Assembly (NCBI RefSeq): GCF_964204645.1
Contig: NC_134025.1
Span: 29,666,001-29,730,000 of the forward strand
DNA length: 64,000 nt
Direction: 5' to 3'
Source: Tubulanus polymorphus
Lineage: Eukaryota > Nemertea > Palaeonemertea > Tubulaniformes > Tubulanidae
Every line of letters begins with the position of its first letter. Positions within the stretch are counted from its first letter, which is position 1. This document shows positions 1,757 to 26,800 of this stretch, one piece after another. The notes below the pieces were generated by a model. That model saw only the letters and a program-made list of their open reading frames with translations, had not been told where the DNA came from and did not search any database. The translations under genes were made by a program, and so were the position numbers.

Positions 1757-2532
1757 ATGTGTAACGAATGTGTAAAGGAACAGTATCCGAATCGTGTAAG
1801 TCTTATACTTATAACAGATATCCTTTAAATCAAGTATTTGAATAGGCTACTACCCAAATCTGATAGGCTAGGGGGCGACACTATACGGTGATTAATAAAT
1901 AAATAATCTTGCGGGCTGAGGCTAATGCTCGGCGTTCTCAATCACTTAATAGGGTTACATGTAGAGTTTGAATATTAACTCTTATTTCAGGAAAATATTT
2001 GTATCGAAAGCGGTTCGTATAGATTGAACTATGCGGGATGTGCCGATTGTCAGAGTAAAGAGATCAAGACCACTAATTTGATAAAAGAGGAAGAAGACAA
2101 TGAAGAGACCATAAAATATGAACGTAAGATCAAATTTAGAAAGAATGTAGACTCTATGTATGAGAGTGGCAATCGAAGAGAGTGGTGGTTATCCAGGGTA
2201 CAGTTGCTCAAAGAAAACCGGCGGATAAATATTATAGTAACAATAAACATTTGATTTTGAGATGTCTTATTGTGAATGCAGTCTGGTGTGATAGTTCGTA
2301 GCACGCCGAAATCATCATTGAGTTTTGATTACCATTAGATAATAAATATGAATTTGTTTTTTCAGATACATGCGCTGATTGTAATCATGTTATCGCTAAT
2401 CATGAATATACGTTCGAAGTAGATGATGATTTCCAACATTACACGATGATGTGTGAACTGTGCGGATGCGCTGAAGATCAAAGAAGTATTTTACCGTATG
2501 ATCCTAGAGCACAACAAGAATTATTCATCTAG
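1757..2532 (+). CDS. CHURC1: Churchill protein, complete
   Basis: Three exons join in frame: 1757-1795 ([13 protein letters not shown]), 1991-2123 and 2366-2532. The product is 112 residues, the same length as human CHURC1. Conserved features are the CxxC near the N-terminus (C2, C5), C30-x2-C33, C60-x2-C63, H65, the HEYTF motif (70-74) and C87-x2-C90, ending [14 protein letters not shown]. These Cys/His residues form the zinc-binding core of the Churchill family, which acts in transcriptional regulation and in FGF response in vertebrate embryos. An open extension of exon 2 past the donor at 2124 reaches a stop at 2254; it is intron read-through. Introns are short (195 and 242 bp). Confidence 0.96.
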
Positions 2533-4208: not shown

Positions 4209-7200
4209 TTAGGAAGCATTAGCAGTCGTTGTATTGACAGAATTATCTTCTAACTGAATGCGTTTCGACGTAGTTTTAAATCTGTCGTAGCAAACTCGTA
4301 TTAAATACGAAACGACGGCGCAAACGATCAGTTTAAAAACTTCCAGCATCGCCGCTTCTATAATTACTGCATAAAATAACGAACCGAGCCAACTGACGAC
4401 TTCTTCATTAGATAAAGAAATTCCGAATAGCGGCGTAGCTATAAACATTCCGATTATATGAAATGTTAGTAGAATATACGATACGTAATGAATGAAATAC
4501 GGCAGGGGGCGGTGTCGCGCGTTACGAGCCTCCAGTTCGATATCTAATAATTCCGATTCGAGCATGTACGTCGCGAAGATCGGACCGTCGAAGTCGTTTT
4601 CTTCGTTCAGAGTTATCACCGAGTTGAACTCTTCGAAACTGACGGCGTCTCGCAACGATCGCATGTTTATAACGGAACCCGTTCGAAACGACGTGAACGA
4701 CGACAAACTGCGGTCGTCCGATATCCAGCTGTTACGAGCCGTATAGAAACTCTCCAGATCGGATGCCGTCACGCTTGGCTGCATCGAGAACCGATGACTC
4801 GATATCGGAGTGCCACCTAGTTTACGCATCTCAACAACAACTTCCTCTGAAATATAAAACCATATTTTACTTCATTAAATTAATTTTTACATGTTTTAAT
4901 GATAGTATTTCATAACGAGTTAACTTTTTATTTGACTGCCACTGCAAAGCCCATTTTGAGGATATCTGTAATGGAAGAACTGAACCATAGTCCGGTCACG
5001 GACTATCCAGCAGTCCGATACCAGTTCCACACTCACCTGGTTCAGTAGCTAATGCTCCCGATAAACGACTATAAGCGTTTATTATCGGATCCCACAACAT
5101 TCGTCCCCAGGTTTTTTTCGGTAAAGGATCCGGCATCGACGAATCGTCATCAATCGATTCATCGGATGACAATCGGTGATAATCTTCATCGATTCCTCGA
5201 TTCATCGCGACCACGCTTCCGTCGTCGGGCGGCATCTTTTTAACGAACTGCTTCTCATCGTTGTCGTTTGATTTTAGATTCTCATTCTCTTCAGCTCCGG
5301 GAGCGGCGACCACGTTTCCGTTCATTTCTTGTTTTTTTCTGGGAGGTGGCGGCACCGGGCGACGCTGTTTACCGCTCGGTTTCGGAGACGAAGCTTTCAT
5401 CAATGCGCTGCTCAATATCGATTTCGGGAGAAGTTTTTCTTTCTCCGCTCCGACAGATCCGTTTGCTCCGGATGTCTGTTTCGTTATCGAATCGTCTTTG
5501 TTAGTTTTATTGTTATCTTCTCGTTCCCAGCCGTCGGGAACGTGCGCGATGGCCGAAATATCGCTGGGAAAACACGGTAACTTAACGATGCCGGCGTTCG
5601 CGCAGACGCTGTTCGTCGACGACGACGCCGACGACTGAACAGTCGTGTTTAACAGATCGCACGAACGAACCGTGTGAACGGGCGTTCGACGGATCCGACG
5701 CGGCTCCGTCAAACGTAACAGAGTCTCGAAAATCCACGAGGAAACAGCGGCGAGCAGAATGAACGCGAAGCCCGTTCGAAATCCACGGTAGATATCGGCG
5801 TAACGAGCGATCGCGGCGAAAAACATGAACGACGTCAAGAAATGAGCGCACAATAAAAACCGGGCGAACGTCGGCATATAACACGGGCACTGCCACTGCG
5901 TTAACGACATCCATATATGCATATCACCCATCTGTTCGAGGAAATAATATAGAACATATCTGAAAATAAATATGAATGAATGAATTCATTTTTTATTGTA
6001 TCAATGATGATATAAATATATAGAATATTCTATAAATTGTGACGCAATGAAGGAGTCTAGATAGCCAAAGGCTGAATACTTTGTGGCCGAGGCTCCTTAT
6101 ATTTAAATGAGCATGAAAAAACAAGTGAGAGAGAGATAGACATGCTTACTCAATTAAGGCCTTACGTACATGTATGTATCTATACAGGGATTAATATGGA
6201 AATGGAAATACTAGAGTAATTGATGGTTGATTGGGGGAAAGATTTGATGATACCACGCTCATTTAAAACTGTGTCTCATACTCATGATTTATGTACCTCA
6301 ATATTCCTTCAGGGGGTAAATGAGTTGTAAGCGGAAACTGGTGAATATTTTCCTCATTCGGTTCGGCCCTCAACCATCTACTATCCTTACATCGGTACCA
6401 TAATTTAGTGTCGAGATCTTGCACAGAAACACATGTGACATACCTAAAAACGGTAAGTAGAAAACAGTCCTTCATGAAAATACTTTTTTTATAAGAAAAT
6501 CAATCGTTTAATTATCACAGAATCTCACCAGTTATCGGGGCCTTTATGTTTGATTTCAACATATTCTAAAACTCCGAGATTATCTGTGAATAGAGGAATG
6601 AAATGATAATCAAAATACATGAAAATCAAGCGGAAAATGTATATGAAAAATCTTCTCTACCTGGTCCATTACAGTAGAACATATCGAGTTTGCCTTTCTG
6701 AAACGGTTTGTCTTTCAATCCGTTGCGTCCAGTGATCTTATATTCACCGCTCGATGCATCGGATCCAATCATTCGCAAACTGATTCTCGGCGAAATTGAA
6801 CTGGCACCTGAAAAATTATCGAATAACGAAATTCAATTATTTGTGACACAGATATTCGAATAGTTACCAGTACCGAAAACCCATACATGAACTTCCATCA
6901 ACTCCTGATGAGATTTCTTATTAATTTTCAAAAATCATGCAGTACCCAAACGATGAAAACCATTTTCATTGATTTAACCCAAGGTGGCCACTTTCCGCCC
7001 ATTTACAAATTCCCAGTGAATTAAAGAAATTTCTTGGTTTAACAGCAACAATTCATTCACTTTTCATTGAATTTCTAAGTGATAAAGAAACATGTGGTAA
7101 ATAGCATTATCCAAATTCCCTGATATTTTCAAGGATTTGTCAAATTCCATGAGTTTTCCCTGATTTTTTCTAGATTTTTTTATTCCCCGAGTTTTCCCCG

Positions 7201-8178
7201 AGGTCAGTGGCCACCCTGCAAGACTTCAATCGGTTCGTGGTCAGATATTAACGAGCAATCTCATTTTATTTTGAATTTGGCAGACAGGAAATAATTCTAG
7301 GGATATGTCGACAAGTCATTAGGATTCAGGATCGAGACTTATTATATTCAGTCCATCACGAGTGACTAATTATGTGCTGCATATGCATACAGTCTATTGA
7401 TCAAACAATGCGGTGGTATAATCAACATGGTGTTGTGACTTGCATCAGATGGCTATGACTCTATATTTTTATGCTTGTACGAATCTAGTGGGCTGAATTT
7501 ACGGTATATATGTGAACATTCTCTTGACTAGAATAAATTCTCAGATCTCCCGAGACCTCGGAAATAAACATGCGAACATTTCAATCGATTGATTACCCTT
7601 AGTGAATGGTCCTGTATAAGGAAAAATAGTGAATTATACGATTATAATACAACTAAATAAAATTTGAGCGATTGATGAGAAAAAATCATGACAAAAAGAC
7701 AGTACATGACAGAAGAATAAGGGGTCAGTTTACACAGCAGCATGTAGTGGTTTAACAAGCGTGAGAATCAAACAAACATACCTCGCAAGTAACTAGTGAC
7801 AATAGTTATCAGATATGGATGACAATCTGTGCTGTTTGGGGTTTTTAAAACAATTACCGAACTCTGAAATAAATTGAGAGAGAGATTTGAAGTTTTTAAG
7901 TGGTGAGATTTGGAGTCTTGTAGCGGAGAGAAATCTCATACACCACGATACCTTTACGAGGAGGCAGTACTTACTAGAGTCCTGTTCTTCCATAATCGAA
8001 TGCCGAGGAATATATAAAAAGCGCAAACAAACAGAAATATGATGACATCAACAGGAATGATGATATCATTACGTAATATATACAACTGCCTGTCAGTCTC
8101 GGGGGTAGCAGTTATTAGTGTAACATTGTTAATGCTTCCTACTGTAATAGTGTAGGAGGTATTAGTGTCATTCATCAT
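4209..8178 (-). CDS. Polycystin-1-like PLAT domain protein with five membrane segments
   Basis: Seven exons join in frame: 7975-8178, 7782-7863, 6661-6807, 6529-6583, 6297-6443, 5037-5959 and 4209-4846, giving 731 residues. The start is ATG at 8178; an in-frame stop lies 15 bp upstream. Residues 1-38 carry several N-glycosylation sequons, TM1 spans about 39-62, a PLAT/LH2 domain about 84-195 (RISLRMIGSDASSGEYKITG, then WYVTCVSVQDL), TM2 about 245-266 and TM3 about 273-293. A long Ser/Pro-rich loop includes RRPVPPPPRKK. TM4 (636-660) and TM5 (672-702) precede a 29-residue tail. The order TM1-PLAT-TM2-TM3-loop-TM4-TM5 and motifs such as LPYFIHYVSYIL and SWLGSLFYA match polycystin-1, but the REJ/GAIN ectodomain and the TM6-11 channel are absent. 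Function is unknown; by family it may act in cilia or membrane signalling. Confidence 0.85.
6980..7219. mobile_element. MITE-like element, AGGTGGCCACT termini, in intron
   Basis: Left aaggtggccact and right agtggccaccct are inverted. The interior is AT-rich with repeated attccctga/ttttccccgag motifs. It sits in intron 2 of the PLAT membrane protein gene. Half-copies with the same interior motifs recur near 49500-49580 and 52040-52100. Confidence 0.5.
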
Positions 8179-9147
8179 CACGCCAACATTTCACTGATCA
8201 ATCATCATTCATAAAACTCTTCAATCCGTCTGGTCTCCAGCAGGCGGCTTACACACACACTACAGGAGTATAAAGTTTGCCCCTCTGGAAAATTGAGTTA
8301 ACAACTTTTTTAACAACAGACAAGTAACGACATTCGGCGTAAAATCTTATTCAAGACCAACCAATTCAAGAGCAGAGGTTTAGAATGATGTGAACAGCGT
8401 AGATTATAGAAAGCTCAGTCCCGCGGTCTAGGCCCTTGGCCCTTGGGACAAAAGTCAAGGCACTGCTATCTACTGAATGACAGAATCCAGGCTAAAATCT
8501 ATCTAGTGAAGATATCTTAAAATTAACCAATGGCATGAAATGAAATTGCTGATGACATTTTGAATCTGAAACAATGATATTTAATGTAATTGATTGAACC
8601 GTTTATTTACGCGGAGAGGTGCAGATCTGCACTTTACCAACCTTCGTTTCAACTGCCACAATACATAAACAGATTTCTTACCTGCTTTAAGCCATATCAA
8701 CCATTAGAACTACGACTGACTGCTGGAGCAGTGCAGGAGCTCCAGCCAGTAGCAGCGCAGTGATGCGGAACGAACATCCTCAGCAGCCACGGCACAAATG
8801 TTTGTAACAGCTGTAGCAAAAAAGCATATATTTCATATATTTTCTATTTCAAATATATAATTAATCATCATATATCCAGCGATAAAGTTTATTTTATGGA
8901 AATTAGAGCTTAATCAATATTAAAAGATCCAGATTAAAAATAAAAATTCGAAATTTTGAAATAATTATTACAGCAGTATGTAAACAACTGAACTCCTTCC
9001 CAGTGCCATTGAGGGTGTATTTTATTGGATGATCGAGATTCTACTCAGTTTACATTCTACCGCGAATAGGTATATCACGTGATCGAGTTCTAACATGTCG
9101 TGCTTACGGATCGACCGCTGAAATACGACACATAGTGAATCTGCACG
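8179..9147. promoter_or_regulatory. Divergent intergenic region upstream of the PLAT gene and EIF4A3
   Basis: No coding sequence is visible. The 969 bp separate two divergent start codons and must contain both promoters. A palindromic CTGCTGGAGC/GCTCCAGC patch lies near 8721-8755. No TATA box could be assigned with confidence. Confidence 0.45.
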
Positions 9148-20800: not shown

Positions 20801-23800
20801 AGGTTACCCGCGGAAAACGGGTAAATTCTGGTTAAGATCGGAATCTCTGTCGTAAGGAAATGACCTCTGTTAGCTTTGATTAGTTAGTGAACCGATCAGT
20901 TTTGTTTTCACAGCGTTGCTACCCTAAAACCTGCGATTTCTATCGCTCCCGGTATTTTTATATCGTGCCAATCCGATTCGATTAAATCATAAGCGCAATA
21001 AAGTCGGAACTAGTATTTATAAACGGCTAATCATTTAATTAGTCGTATCGATCGATCGGAGAGAAGTGTTCGTGTATTAGGTCACATACGGTATGTACGG
21101 TACTCTCTCTCTCTATCTCTCTGATATTTTATCAGTTTAGCTGTTGATCTTGAGAGCGAATAGACCGAAGACCTATCTCAGAATGCCAGTAGGAATTACA
21201 TTAGTGGAACAATGGAATAGACCGTATATGAGCCAGGGATTAGACTCGAGCGGTTTAGGAAGATCGACGGGCACGTTGTCTGATGTACCCAGTTTACCTT
21301 CGGTTTCAGGTAGAAATTCGAGACGATTAATGAATTAATATCACGAGATAAAACTTCTCTTAGAAATAGAATACCGCGCTAGAAATGAAAGAATAGAGTC
21401 TGAAAAGTTTCCTCTAGCTTGTAGGCCTATATTCAACGTTCCGACTAGGCCTATCGTAATATACCTCTTCATGAACATTGACTAGCCCTACTAGGAAACT
21501 TTTTTTCATTCTTAGTGTTGGATTTCATATAATTGTTATTAAACGGACTCGTGGTGTTTAAGGCTTTTTTAGTATTAACTGTACTTAAAAAAAATTGTAT
21601 CGAATTAGTGTACTGTGTGACCTGTAATGTTTGATATCCAGTGACCAGCAAATGACATCTTAGCGCTGTCTATTCCCGACCCTTGTGACAAAAACCACTT
21701 TATATCAATTGTACAAAATTGTATTTATTCTCGTTTAAAGCAATGTTCTAATTATATATTCCTGGATGGGTTAATTATAGGATTGGGAGTTATCGGAATA
21801 TATTTAACTACGTTCCGAGGATAGGAAACTATATTTTCAGTGATGATTAATTCATTTCGAGTTCCTTGTATTTCTTCATCGGATCTCATTTTCAATGTAA
21901 ACTTGTTTTTTTCGTTTTACTCATTCAATAATCTATGAATAGTAAGACCTCATTAGGACGAAGTATCAACATTCGAGTTACTGTATAATATATCTCTTGA
22001 ATATAGCTGGAGAAAACACTGGTTTTTAGCAAAAGAATTTTTAAAATAACACTTAGGAATACTGCACCAGCACACTGCTGTGCGTTACTGTTAATCATCA
22101 ATTTATTGATTTGTTTTGATCAGTTTGGACGCATTCCATATAGATATAGTACATAACTAATAATGCAACCATAAATCTGTTATTTAAACCTTTCCGGTTC
22201 CTGCTACTTGTAGATATATTTACTGCCTGCTTTTTAATCCCTTGAAAAAAAATCAGGAAATTCCTCATTTTGAAGGTTTTGTGTACGGGAGATGATAATT
22301 TCTGTACTGGCGCTGATCCGTTGTTCTTGCGGGGGTTTGCCCAAGACCCTCGGATGTTTTCAATTGCCCTTTTCTGAATAAACTCTTTACTGCCTTCTTA
22401 CGTATAATATTATAAACTCCTCTCGCATATTTGAAAGGATTTATAAGTATTCCAACTTGGAAGTGATGTAAAATACATCTCACCCATCTACAAATCTTCA
22501 AAAGCGAAGCCTTACTCCAAATATACCTTTTCACTGATAAATCTTATTGTAGAAAGACCTTCTAAAATAGTGCTCAGATCGACCCCTCTCAGATCGACCC
22601 CTCTCAGATCGACCCCTCTCTGATCAACCCCTCTCAGATCAACCCATGCTCCTCATGAATGTAAGCAGTTTTCCCATGTTTGATTCATCGTCCGGATGTT
22701 TAATGATAATATCAGTGTTTTTTCGAACACAGTAGGCACAGTGAAAAAGTGGTTTATCTAGTGAAATATCTATCAGCAGCCTTTTTTATCGGTCTCGTCA
22801 CTTGATATGATTGAAACTGAAATGGGAAACTAGCTTTCCCCCTGTTTCAATTTTTTCTTTGTTTATCGACATCATTCCAATTTCAGTCTGAATTCGTTCT
22901 TTGATCAGCAACAGTCATAACATTGTTTTTATTCTTCGCGTTTTAAAGAGAGATTTTTAAATGAATTGTTTACAATGATTCATACAGACCAGCAGCGTGT
23001 TGTGTGTTGTGGTGTTGCAGCGTGTCATGTGGCGTTGCTTGGTGTGGTGCGGTGTTGTGTGGTGTGGCAGCGTGTCATGTGGCGTTGCTCTGGGTGGTGC
23101 GGTGTTGTGTGGTGTGGCAGCATGTCATGTGGCGTTGCCTGGCGTGGTGCGGTGTTGTGTGGTGTGGCAGCGTGTCATGTGGCGTTGCTTGGCGTGGTGC
23201 GGTGTTGTGTGGTGTGGCAGCGTGTCATGTGGCGTTGCTTGGCGTGGTGCGGTGTTGTGTGGCAGCGTGTCATGTGGCATTGCTTGGCGTGGTGCGGTGT
23301 TGTGTGGTGTGGTGTGGTGTGGCAGCGTGTCATGTTGCGTTGCTTGGCGTGGTGCGGTGTTGTGTGTTGTGGTGTGGCAGCGTGTCATGTGGCATTACTT
23401 GGCGTGGTACGGTGTAGTGTGGTGTGGCAGCGTGTCATGTGGCATTGCTTGGCGTGGTGCGGTGTTGTGTGGTGTGGTGTGGCAGCGTGTCATGTTGCGT
23501 TGCTTGGCGTGGTGCGGTGTTGTGTGGTGTGGCAGCGTGTCATTTGGCGTGGTGCGGTGTTGTGTGGTGTGGCAGCGTGTCATGTGGCGTTGCTTGGCGT
23601 GGTGCGGTGTTGTGTGGTGTGGCAGCGTGTCATGTGGCGTTGCTTGGCGTGGTGCGGTGTTGTGTGGTGTGGCGTCGTTTGGTAGTGCAGATTTCTCGGG
23701 TGTCCAATTATGCAATAAGAACAAATTCAAACTATGCTGGATGCTAAATATAATATCTGGGGATACTTTCAAAATTTGGGGACCACCGACATATTTTCAG

Positions 23801-26800
23801 GATCTCATTCTGTTTGGATCATTGACTCTTTGAAGAATAGCATATATTACACTATTCTGTAATGTATGCAGCCACAGAGCAGAACTGCATCCTGTTCCTC
23901 AGAGTTGAAATAAGTCAATTTCCAATTTTTTAACCAAGGAGGTTGGAGTGTAACCAATGAGTCCGATAATTGAAGAAATAGACACCTGAGTTCAAATTCA
24001 TGAAAGTCGATCAGGGTGGATGCTGATCTGGAAAAATCTTGCAAAAATCCACGAATAATGCAGGGAATTTTAAAAAATATCCTTAAGCCTGGAAAACTGT
24101 GGGAATTCGGATAAGCTGTTGACCTGAACTCAGGCAATTTTGTGTGTTAAACGTCGAAAAATTATTTACAAATGGGGGAAAGTGACAACCTTCTCATTTT
24201 CAATGAACTATGTATATCTGTATGTTGAACTGCAGGGTCCGATCTTAGGAATGAAAGCCACTTGCCCCGGGGGCAAGCATATCTGAAATTTTGCTTGCCC
24301 CCTCCAAAAACTACTTGCCCTACACAGGCAGTCAATTGGTGGCACTATCATCCGTTGTATCGAGTGGGAAAAAAAGCTTTGTGACATAAAATTCACTAGC
24401 CCGGCGGACAAGTGATAATGATAACCTACTTGTCCCGGGTATATTAGATCAGACCCTGAACTGGATCCTGATATTCTTTATTGCGTATATTTTTATAGGT
24501 CGAAGAGAAACTGAAGAATCAACGACGGATTTAAGCGAATTAATCGAAGATAAAGAAATAGCGTCGAAAGCTGTGGCATTTGTGGTGAACAGCACGAGAA
24601 AGGGCATTGTTCCGTTATGTGCAGATATCGCCAACCTGTTAGTCGACAGAAAAACGTACGTTTTTTTCTCCTCATTTCGTTTGTCTTCGCGAGATCCATT
24701 ATCGTTCAACGGCGGAATATTTTCGAAAGATCGTACGCAATGTTTCGCTCGTTCAATCGAAAGCTTTTATCGGTATTTGGATTGTATACAAACAGACGTT
24801 ATTTTTAGAGTACATTTTCGAATTGTTTATTAGTATTGAAAAAAAATATCACCCGAAAGCGTTGTCCGCAGTCATTATTCGGTTGAATCATGATTATATT
24901 ATGTTCACATTAGTTATTTAGATAACTTCTTCAAATACAATAGCGCGAATTCCTCGTAAGCATTTCAATGTATGTAAATATGTGAATTTGCTGTGTATTT
25001 TAGACATGTGAATCGGGTCTGCCCCTCGAGTGAGTGAGTGATGTGCCTCGTTTCGCGTCAATTTCACTTCTTCCGCTTCGGCCATTACTGTCCCGAATTT
25101 ATGGCAAACATTTTCATTTGAATATTCGTCGTTTCGATGTTTACAAATTCGAGCAGCTACATAAATTTAGAATGAATGAATTTTCGAGGAAATAAATCAA
25201 ATACCGGGCCTATAAAAAATCATTAATGTTTTGCTAGTTGTTCAGAAATGTATATTTATAGAGCGTTATATGACTGAGTCCTGGTTATTTTCTATTGTTT
25301 ATCATTTTCCCACTAAATTCAGTCACCTTTAAATTTTGCCCTTTGATTATTTGACATTCGCTGAAACTAGAGGTTACTTTAGATGACAATCTTTTTTCAT
25401 AGATATTTTTTTCATCTTTTCAGTTTGGAAAGGAAACTGACGAACCTTTCGAGAGAGAATGACGTGCTCAGATCTCAGACCGCTAGCTTACGAACGAGTC
25501 AATCAACCAGTCCAACTCCACCAACTATCGCTAATTACTGCAGCAGTGATCAGAGTAGCAGAACCAGGGTAGAGTATTTCATCCCGTTTTATTTTAGCCC
25601 GGGTTTTCCCATTTATAGCTCTTCCTTGAAATTTGCCTCAACGATTATACAACGAGCAATCTGATTGGTGCCGCCAGTTTTCGTTCGGAAAGCTGCGCAT
25701 GTACCTGCGCACCCGGTCTACTGATGCAGGGGTTCGTGCCGTGGCTGAGTGTAGCGATGCCATCAGGTTCGAGTCCCTGCAGAGGGAGGATGGTAACAAG
25801 CAGGAGTCAGATGGATGTAGAGTATCACACAATAAGTACCAAAAATGATATAGGCCCTATATAGTGAGTGCGAAAGTGTTTTTTTTTTAGCTAGTCGTAT
25901 ATTCAATGGGAAATTGAAGTTTATTCGAAGCAGAAAATTTTCATACGCTTCTTTCACCTCTGCGAGAGGAGAGGAATAAAATTTGGTTTTTGATTTTTCA
26001 GGAGAAGGGCTACCGTCCTTGTTCGCGCTGTAGCCAATGTTCCAGCAGTCTCCATAGTAACTCGCCACAATTCGACAAGATGCCGCGTGCGTCATCGCCA
26101 AACAGTTCAATAGACAGTTTAAATAGACAGAAACAACGACAACGACAGTATTCGACAACATCAACTAAAAAACATCATCATAGAAAACACTCGTTACCTG
26201 ATATAACTAATGATACTGTAGCGACTGTCAGGTAATTTCTACCGGTTATATAGACCCCCATTTTCACTGTATCCCAGCATACCAAATGTACTAGATTATT
26301 ATTTTGTGAAGTAAATGCAGTAATTTAGTTAGTAATTATATAATGTTAAGAAATGAACAAATTTGATTTTCAAAGGGTAAGTAATTTAACCCTATAGTGA
26401 AATTGTAACCATGGACCTGGTTCAAATGTCTCATGATTTATGTGTGAATTTCAACCAATCGTCCTCGACATTCTGAAACATGTTTTCGATTTGTAAAATT
26501 TGCGATCACGCCACCGGCATCTTATCATCTTGATTTTAAATAACAAAACATTTCAAGAGATTTAACAATAGATGCTTCGGAATCGTGTGACTTCACAATC
26601 AGCGGACAACATCACGCCACTTTTTCTTATCTCGCAACCATGTACTTGAAATATCAATTGAAAAAACATTTTCGAGGACCCATGATTCTAATCAGCACGA
26701 TAGAATTGACTTTTATCAATAAAGACCATGGAAATTTCCATAGAATGTCGGAAAGTTTTTCAAAAATATTTGTAAATAGTTTGTAAATCAAGTCTAGACT

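Follow-up and report, generated by a model that had tools for sequence, protein, structure and literature searches.

A predicted five-transmembrane homologue of the polycystin-1 TM1-PLAT-TM2-5 module, lacking channel and ectodomain, in Tubulanus polymorphus

A seven-exon gene in a 64,000-nucleotide stretch of the Tubulanus polymorphus genome (NC_134025.1, positions 29,666,001 to 29,730,000; here called the window) encodes a protein homologous to the TM1-PLAT-TM2-5 part of polycystin-1, the receptor associated with kidney cysts. We consider it, with a probability of about 60%, to be an intact nuclear gene for a pore-less homologue with five transmembrane segments (TMs), which forms a distinct channel-less subfamily with a paralogue on C6 and which is most likely a non-conducting scaffold.

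Gene model and neighborhood

The gene occupies positions 8178 to 4209 on the minus strand of the window, and its product comprises 731 codons plus a stop. Coding exon 1 (7975..8178), delimited by splice-site and frame reading and by hydropathy, contains the ATG, a short N terminus with three N-glycosylation sequons that is predicted to be extracellular, and TM1. Exon 2 (82 bp; 7782..7863) encodes the TM1-PLAT linker and the first PLAT strand. The PLAT domain continues through exon 3 (147 bp; 6661..6807), assigned by profile alignment, and exon 4 (55 bp; 6529..6583), which includes a shortened EIKHKGPDNWY stretch, and ends in exon 5 (147 bp; 6297..6443). On the basis of hydropathy and profile alignment, exon 6 (923 bp; 5037..5959) carries an HIW motif, TM2, TM3, and most of a long proline-rich and acidic loop that is predicted to be cytosolic, and exon 7 (638 bp; 4209..4846) carries the remainder of the loop, a PLP-F motif, TM4, TM5, a 29-residue tail, and the stop codon.

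All introns are of the GT-AG type with mutually consistent phases (0, 1, 1, 2, 2, and 1), every splice site is intact, and no frameshift or stop interrupts the 731 codons. The GC content is 0.455 in the exons versus 0.341 in the introns (0.34 to 0.38 for introns and flanks). Hydropathy peaks place the five TMs at approximately residues 39 to 57, 244 to 262, 275 to 293, 644 to 662, and 680 to 698, with ~29 to 33 residues following TM5. The intron borders, the fitting phases, and the hydropathy profile bear out the coordinates, the seven exons, the length of 731 residues, and the domain order given in the original prediction, which had also placed the C terminus 29 residues after TM5 and the start at a true ATG behind an in-frame stop. 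Such a stop, a TGA, is located directly upstream of the ATG. The 5' and 3' ends of the gene as modelled here are predicted ends. Exon 1 may extend upstream into a 5' untranslated portion (8179..8284, minus strand) that contains the in-frame stop, and a noncoding first exon may be located at 8682..8810 on the same strand, as suggested by a consensus donor (CAG|GTAAGAAA) at 8681 and a candidate acceptor for the next exon at 8284.

The gene is flanked by a Churchill gene (window positions 1979 to 2532, plus strand; Pfam E value, 1.9e-38) and by a putative DEAD-box helicase gene resembling eIF4A3 (~9148 onwards, plus strand). A putative FAD-dependent oxidoreductase gene resembling L2HGDH is located at 14.8 to 16.9 kb on the minus strand. 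Farther along, the region from 22001 to 24000 shows a marked strand asymmetry (GC skew, 0.21; AT skew, -0.24).

Homology to the polycystin-1 core

The product has the order TM1, PLAT, TM2-3, long cytosolic loop, and TM4-5, followed by the stop. Pfam searches with the 731-amino-acid product identified no polycystin domain and did not reach the PLAT model itself, the best match being the PLAT-like ATS3 (E value, 0.005), and phmmer against the PDB returned nothing relevant and no polycystin. We attribute these misses to strong divergence rather than to search failure, since the same searches matched the core of a true PKD1 gene at C10:1.12 Mb in this genome to human polycystin-1 (PDB 6a70; 5.6e-45) and to Pfam PLAT (1.4e-22). 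Because the Pfam PLAT model misses the protein, the divergence is far greater than the original prediction implied.

The homology became apparent with a profile of six true polycystin-1 cores, namely those of human PKD1, the C10 gene, and four more loci on C4 and C5, from which the window protein was left out. This profile matched the window protein with 81.9 bits, or 87.0 bits after removal of the long loop, and the alignment covered PLAT, the H-I-W motif preceding TM2, and the TM2 to TM5 spans in this order; the PLAT-to-TM2 part scored 59.7 bits. Among 2,000 copies of the window protein shuffled in 12-residue blocks to preserve the membrane pattern, the maximum score was 11.7 bits. In addition, BLASTP aligned the protein with the C10 PKD1 protein over 331 residues. 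The proposed PLAT domain, TM2-5 segment, and homology to the middle of polycystin-1, for which a profile search against the PKD1/PKD1L families had been suggested as a check, are thus substantiated by scores of 82 to 87 bits, compared with no more than 11.7 bits for shuffled sequences.

As in human polycystin-1 (PDB 6a70 and 8z6f), PLAT follows immediately after TM1, and an HxW motif, TM2-3, a cytosolic loop, and TM4-5 succeed it in that order, the homology being detected via the profile. However, the identity to polycystin-1 is only ~20%, the GAIN/GPS/REJ ectodomain and TM6-11 are absent, and the PLAT domain has no WHDNSG stretch. Judged from its sequence, the window protein is therefore a homologue of the TM1-5/PLAT module and is not a polycystin-1 by the criteria of 11 TMs, GPS, and PLAT. 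Lipoxygenase and LOXHD1-type PLAT proteins combine PLAT with a lipoxygenase domain or contain repeated PLATs, and they have no TM2-5 core. The window protein, with one PLAT inside a five-TM protein of the polycystin HxW/TM2-5 order, does not belong to either type. Elsewhere in the genome, ~16 PLAT exon matches within 30 kb at C11:8112776-8142935 have the layout expected of a putative LOXHD1-type gene, and a PLAT match at C5:11533782 was set aside, as its sequence looks like a lipoxygenase-type PLAT exon.

Missing modules and a channel-less sister gene

The original prediction held that the gene has neither the REJ/GAIN ectodomain nor the TM6-11 channel, and searches that succeed at true PKD1 loci indeed detected neither nearby. 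Exons for PKD_channel (PF08016) and Polycystin_dom (PF20519) were identified at many sites in the genome, none of them near the window gene or on C6. With the C4 channel protein as the query, tblastn gave a match no better than chance in the 74 kb of C1 surrounding the window gene and no match in 30 kb at the C6 gene, and the same query recovered channel exons at all four of the other PKD1 loci tested. REJ exons were found on C4, C10, and C61 but none on C1 or C6. The REJ module is also absent from PKD1L3. No GPS was detected near the window gene, either in the genome-wide search or by tblastn with the C10 GPS exon, and C6 likewise gave no GPS match; this absence is softer evidence because some weak GPS copies also go undetected at true loci. 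Of the features of the PKD1 family, the window gene thus has no GPS/GAIN before TM1, no REJ module, and no TM6-TM11 to make up the total of 11 TMs. Five to six near-identical polycystin-like loci at C4:19.89-20.63 Mb and on C61 contain REJ, Polycystin_dom, and channel exons with equal scores and represent a recent expansion or a haplotype duplication of one PKD1L gene.

The best match to the window protein elsewhere in the genome was at C6:23.028 Mb, and in the reverse search the C6 protein had its best match outside its own locus at the window gene. Exon-by-exon reading of the C6 gene (C6:23021028-23028054, plus strand) gave an open frame of 1,680 residues with one stop just past TM5. From the N terminus, its product comprises an additional membrane span followed by TM1, PLAT (Pfam E value, 1.7e-8), TM2-3, a loop of >1,100 residues with repeats, and TM4-5, and it is also channel-less. 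The PLAT exons measure 82, 147, 55, and 147 bases in the window gene and 82, 153, 55, and 150 bases in the C6 gene, with identical phases. Two of the introns, one following the first PLAT strand and one splitting the W-Y pair, had no visible counterpart in the C10 PKD1 gene, and the WHDNSG stretch of true PKD1 copies is lost from both proteins. The two sequences formed a clade with support of 99.5/100. This support could be inflated by the long branches of the tree, but the shared introns argue against such an effect, and both introns and deletion are independent of the tree. The genes differ in the extra N-terminal TM exon of the C6 gene and in their cytosolic loops, which are very long and unrelated to each other. 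That of the C6 protein is encoded by a single exon of 3,663 bases (C6:23024392-23028054) that contains runs of glutamine as well as tandem repeats of LETGDN and GANHPA, and a minisatellite starts immediately after the stop codon. A weak match to the PLAT-end/TM2-3 region of the C6 protein (C9:3767928-3768185; E value, 0.14; 29% identity; two in-frame TGA codons) could be a third, decayed member. As the C6 sister has the same truncation, the short architecture is that of an established subfamily and not a lone annotation accident, and it has the look of a genuine and ancient lineage within the family, not of a degraded copy.

PKD1 relatives short of the full set of 11 TMs are known from the sea urchin, in which SpREJ7 has six predicted TMs and other SpREJ proteins have one or two; however, these proteins retain large REJ ectodomains (SpREJ7 has 3,580 amino acids), whereas the window protein has 731 residues and no ectodomain module (PMC1934368). 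Fish pkd1l3 remnants and human PKD1L2, which are PKD1L relatives, carry PLAT and lack a channel domain, but they either keep the GPS motif or are judged to be remnants or polymorphic pseudogenes (PMC5318412), whereas the window and C6 genes are two intact, diverged sisters. In the planarian and acoel PKD1 proteins of the literature covered here, both PLAT and channel are kept (PMC11448475, PMC10904500). Channel-less relatives are therefore already known, and the part of the literature covered here yielded no account of an intact relative of PKD1 that lacks the ectodomain as well as the channel.

Alternative explanations and possible function

The window gene could be a fragment of a longer polycystin-1 gene whose ectodomain and channel exons are located farther away and are spliced in. 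Its ends are predicted from sequence only, and a plausible acceptor lies within exon 1 at 8141; its phase, 1, is also that of the second exon of the C6 gene. However, a coding upstream exon for this acceptor was sought and not found, an in-frame stop precedes the ATG, and close neighbors are present on both sides (Churchill ending at ~2532 and the helicase from ~9150). This part of C1 contains no channel, GPS, or REJ exons detectable by searches that succeed at true loci, and the C6 sister likewise stops just after TM5, leaving a longer gene very improbable. Decay of a PKD1L gene into a remnant without selected function, comparable to fish pkd1l3 and human PKD1L2, is somewhat easier to reconcile with the data, as channel-less remnants are on record (PMC5318412) and the window sequence is strongly diverged. 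It is nevertheless unlikely in view of the uninterrupted 731 codons, the intact splice sites, and an old, separately maintained sister with an intact frame of 1,680 amino acids and a matching PLAT exon layout.

A stronger competitor accepts the gene as functional and supposes that the module has been freed from the polycystin complex, the protein acting on its own as a PLAT-based lipid or adaptor scaffold. The absence of both channel and ectodomain, the divergence of PLAT and TM2-5, and the very long, unrelated loops of the two sisters are in keeping with such channel independence. However, the HxW motif and the arrangement of TM2-5 have been kept, which suggests that packing surfaces have been preserved, and several full PKD1 and PKD2-like genes in the genome could supply partners, so that we regard this explanation as possible but lean against it.

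We favor a pore-less homologue that serves as a non-conducting scaffold with a regulatory or trafficking role. The eleven helices of the PC-1/PC-2 structure are arranged as two units, with TM1-TM5 at the periphery and TM6-TM11 forming the core (PMC7728438), and the window protein corresponds to the peripheral TM1-5 domain. In the membrane, its short glycosylated N terminus would face the outside, and PLAT and the proline-rich long loop would be cytosolic. PLAT would contact lipid or trafficking partners, and the loop would bind adaptors. Polycystin-1 PLAT controls trafficking and has phosphatidylserine, PI4P, and beta-arrestin as binding partners (PMC9672506); since the WHDNSG stretch has been lost, these interactions may not carry over to the window protein. 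The protein may also bind in trans to full PKD1/PKD2 complexes, in which TM1-5 normally flanks the channel core. A regulatory-subunit or scaffold role is plausible; the original prediction had proposed that the protein could be a regulatory subunit or decoy for polycystin complexes. Rather doubtful, and put forward only tentatively, is the further step that naturally free-standing TM1-5/PLAT proteins constitute a dedicated family whose members serve polycystin channels in trans as accessory or dominant-negative subunits, independently of both ectodomain and pore.

PKD1L3 TM6-11 alone retains channel activity with PKD2L1, and the same paper cites a report on PKD1-CTD with PKD2 as agreeing (PMC8357825). 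As TM6-11 alone still makes channels with PKD2-type subunits, the role of TM1-5 and PLAT in polycystin-1 is unclear. A natural protein consisting of the module only would allow its binding partners and its effect on channel trafficking to be tested without a 3,000-residue ectodomain or a pore, and the second, old paralogue shows the split architecture to be a stable one in this lineage.
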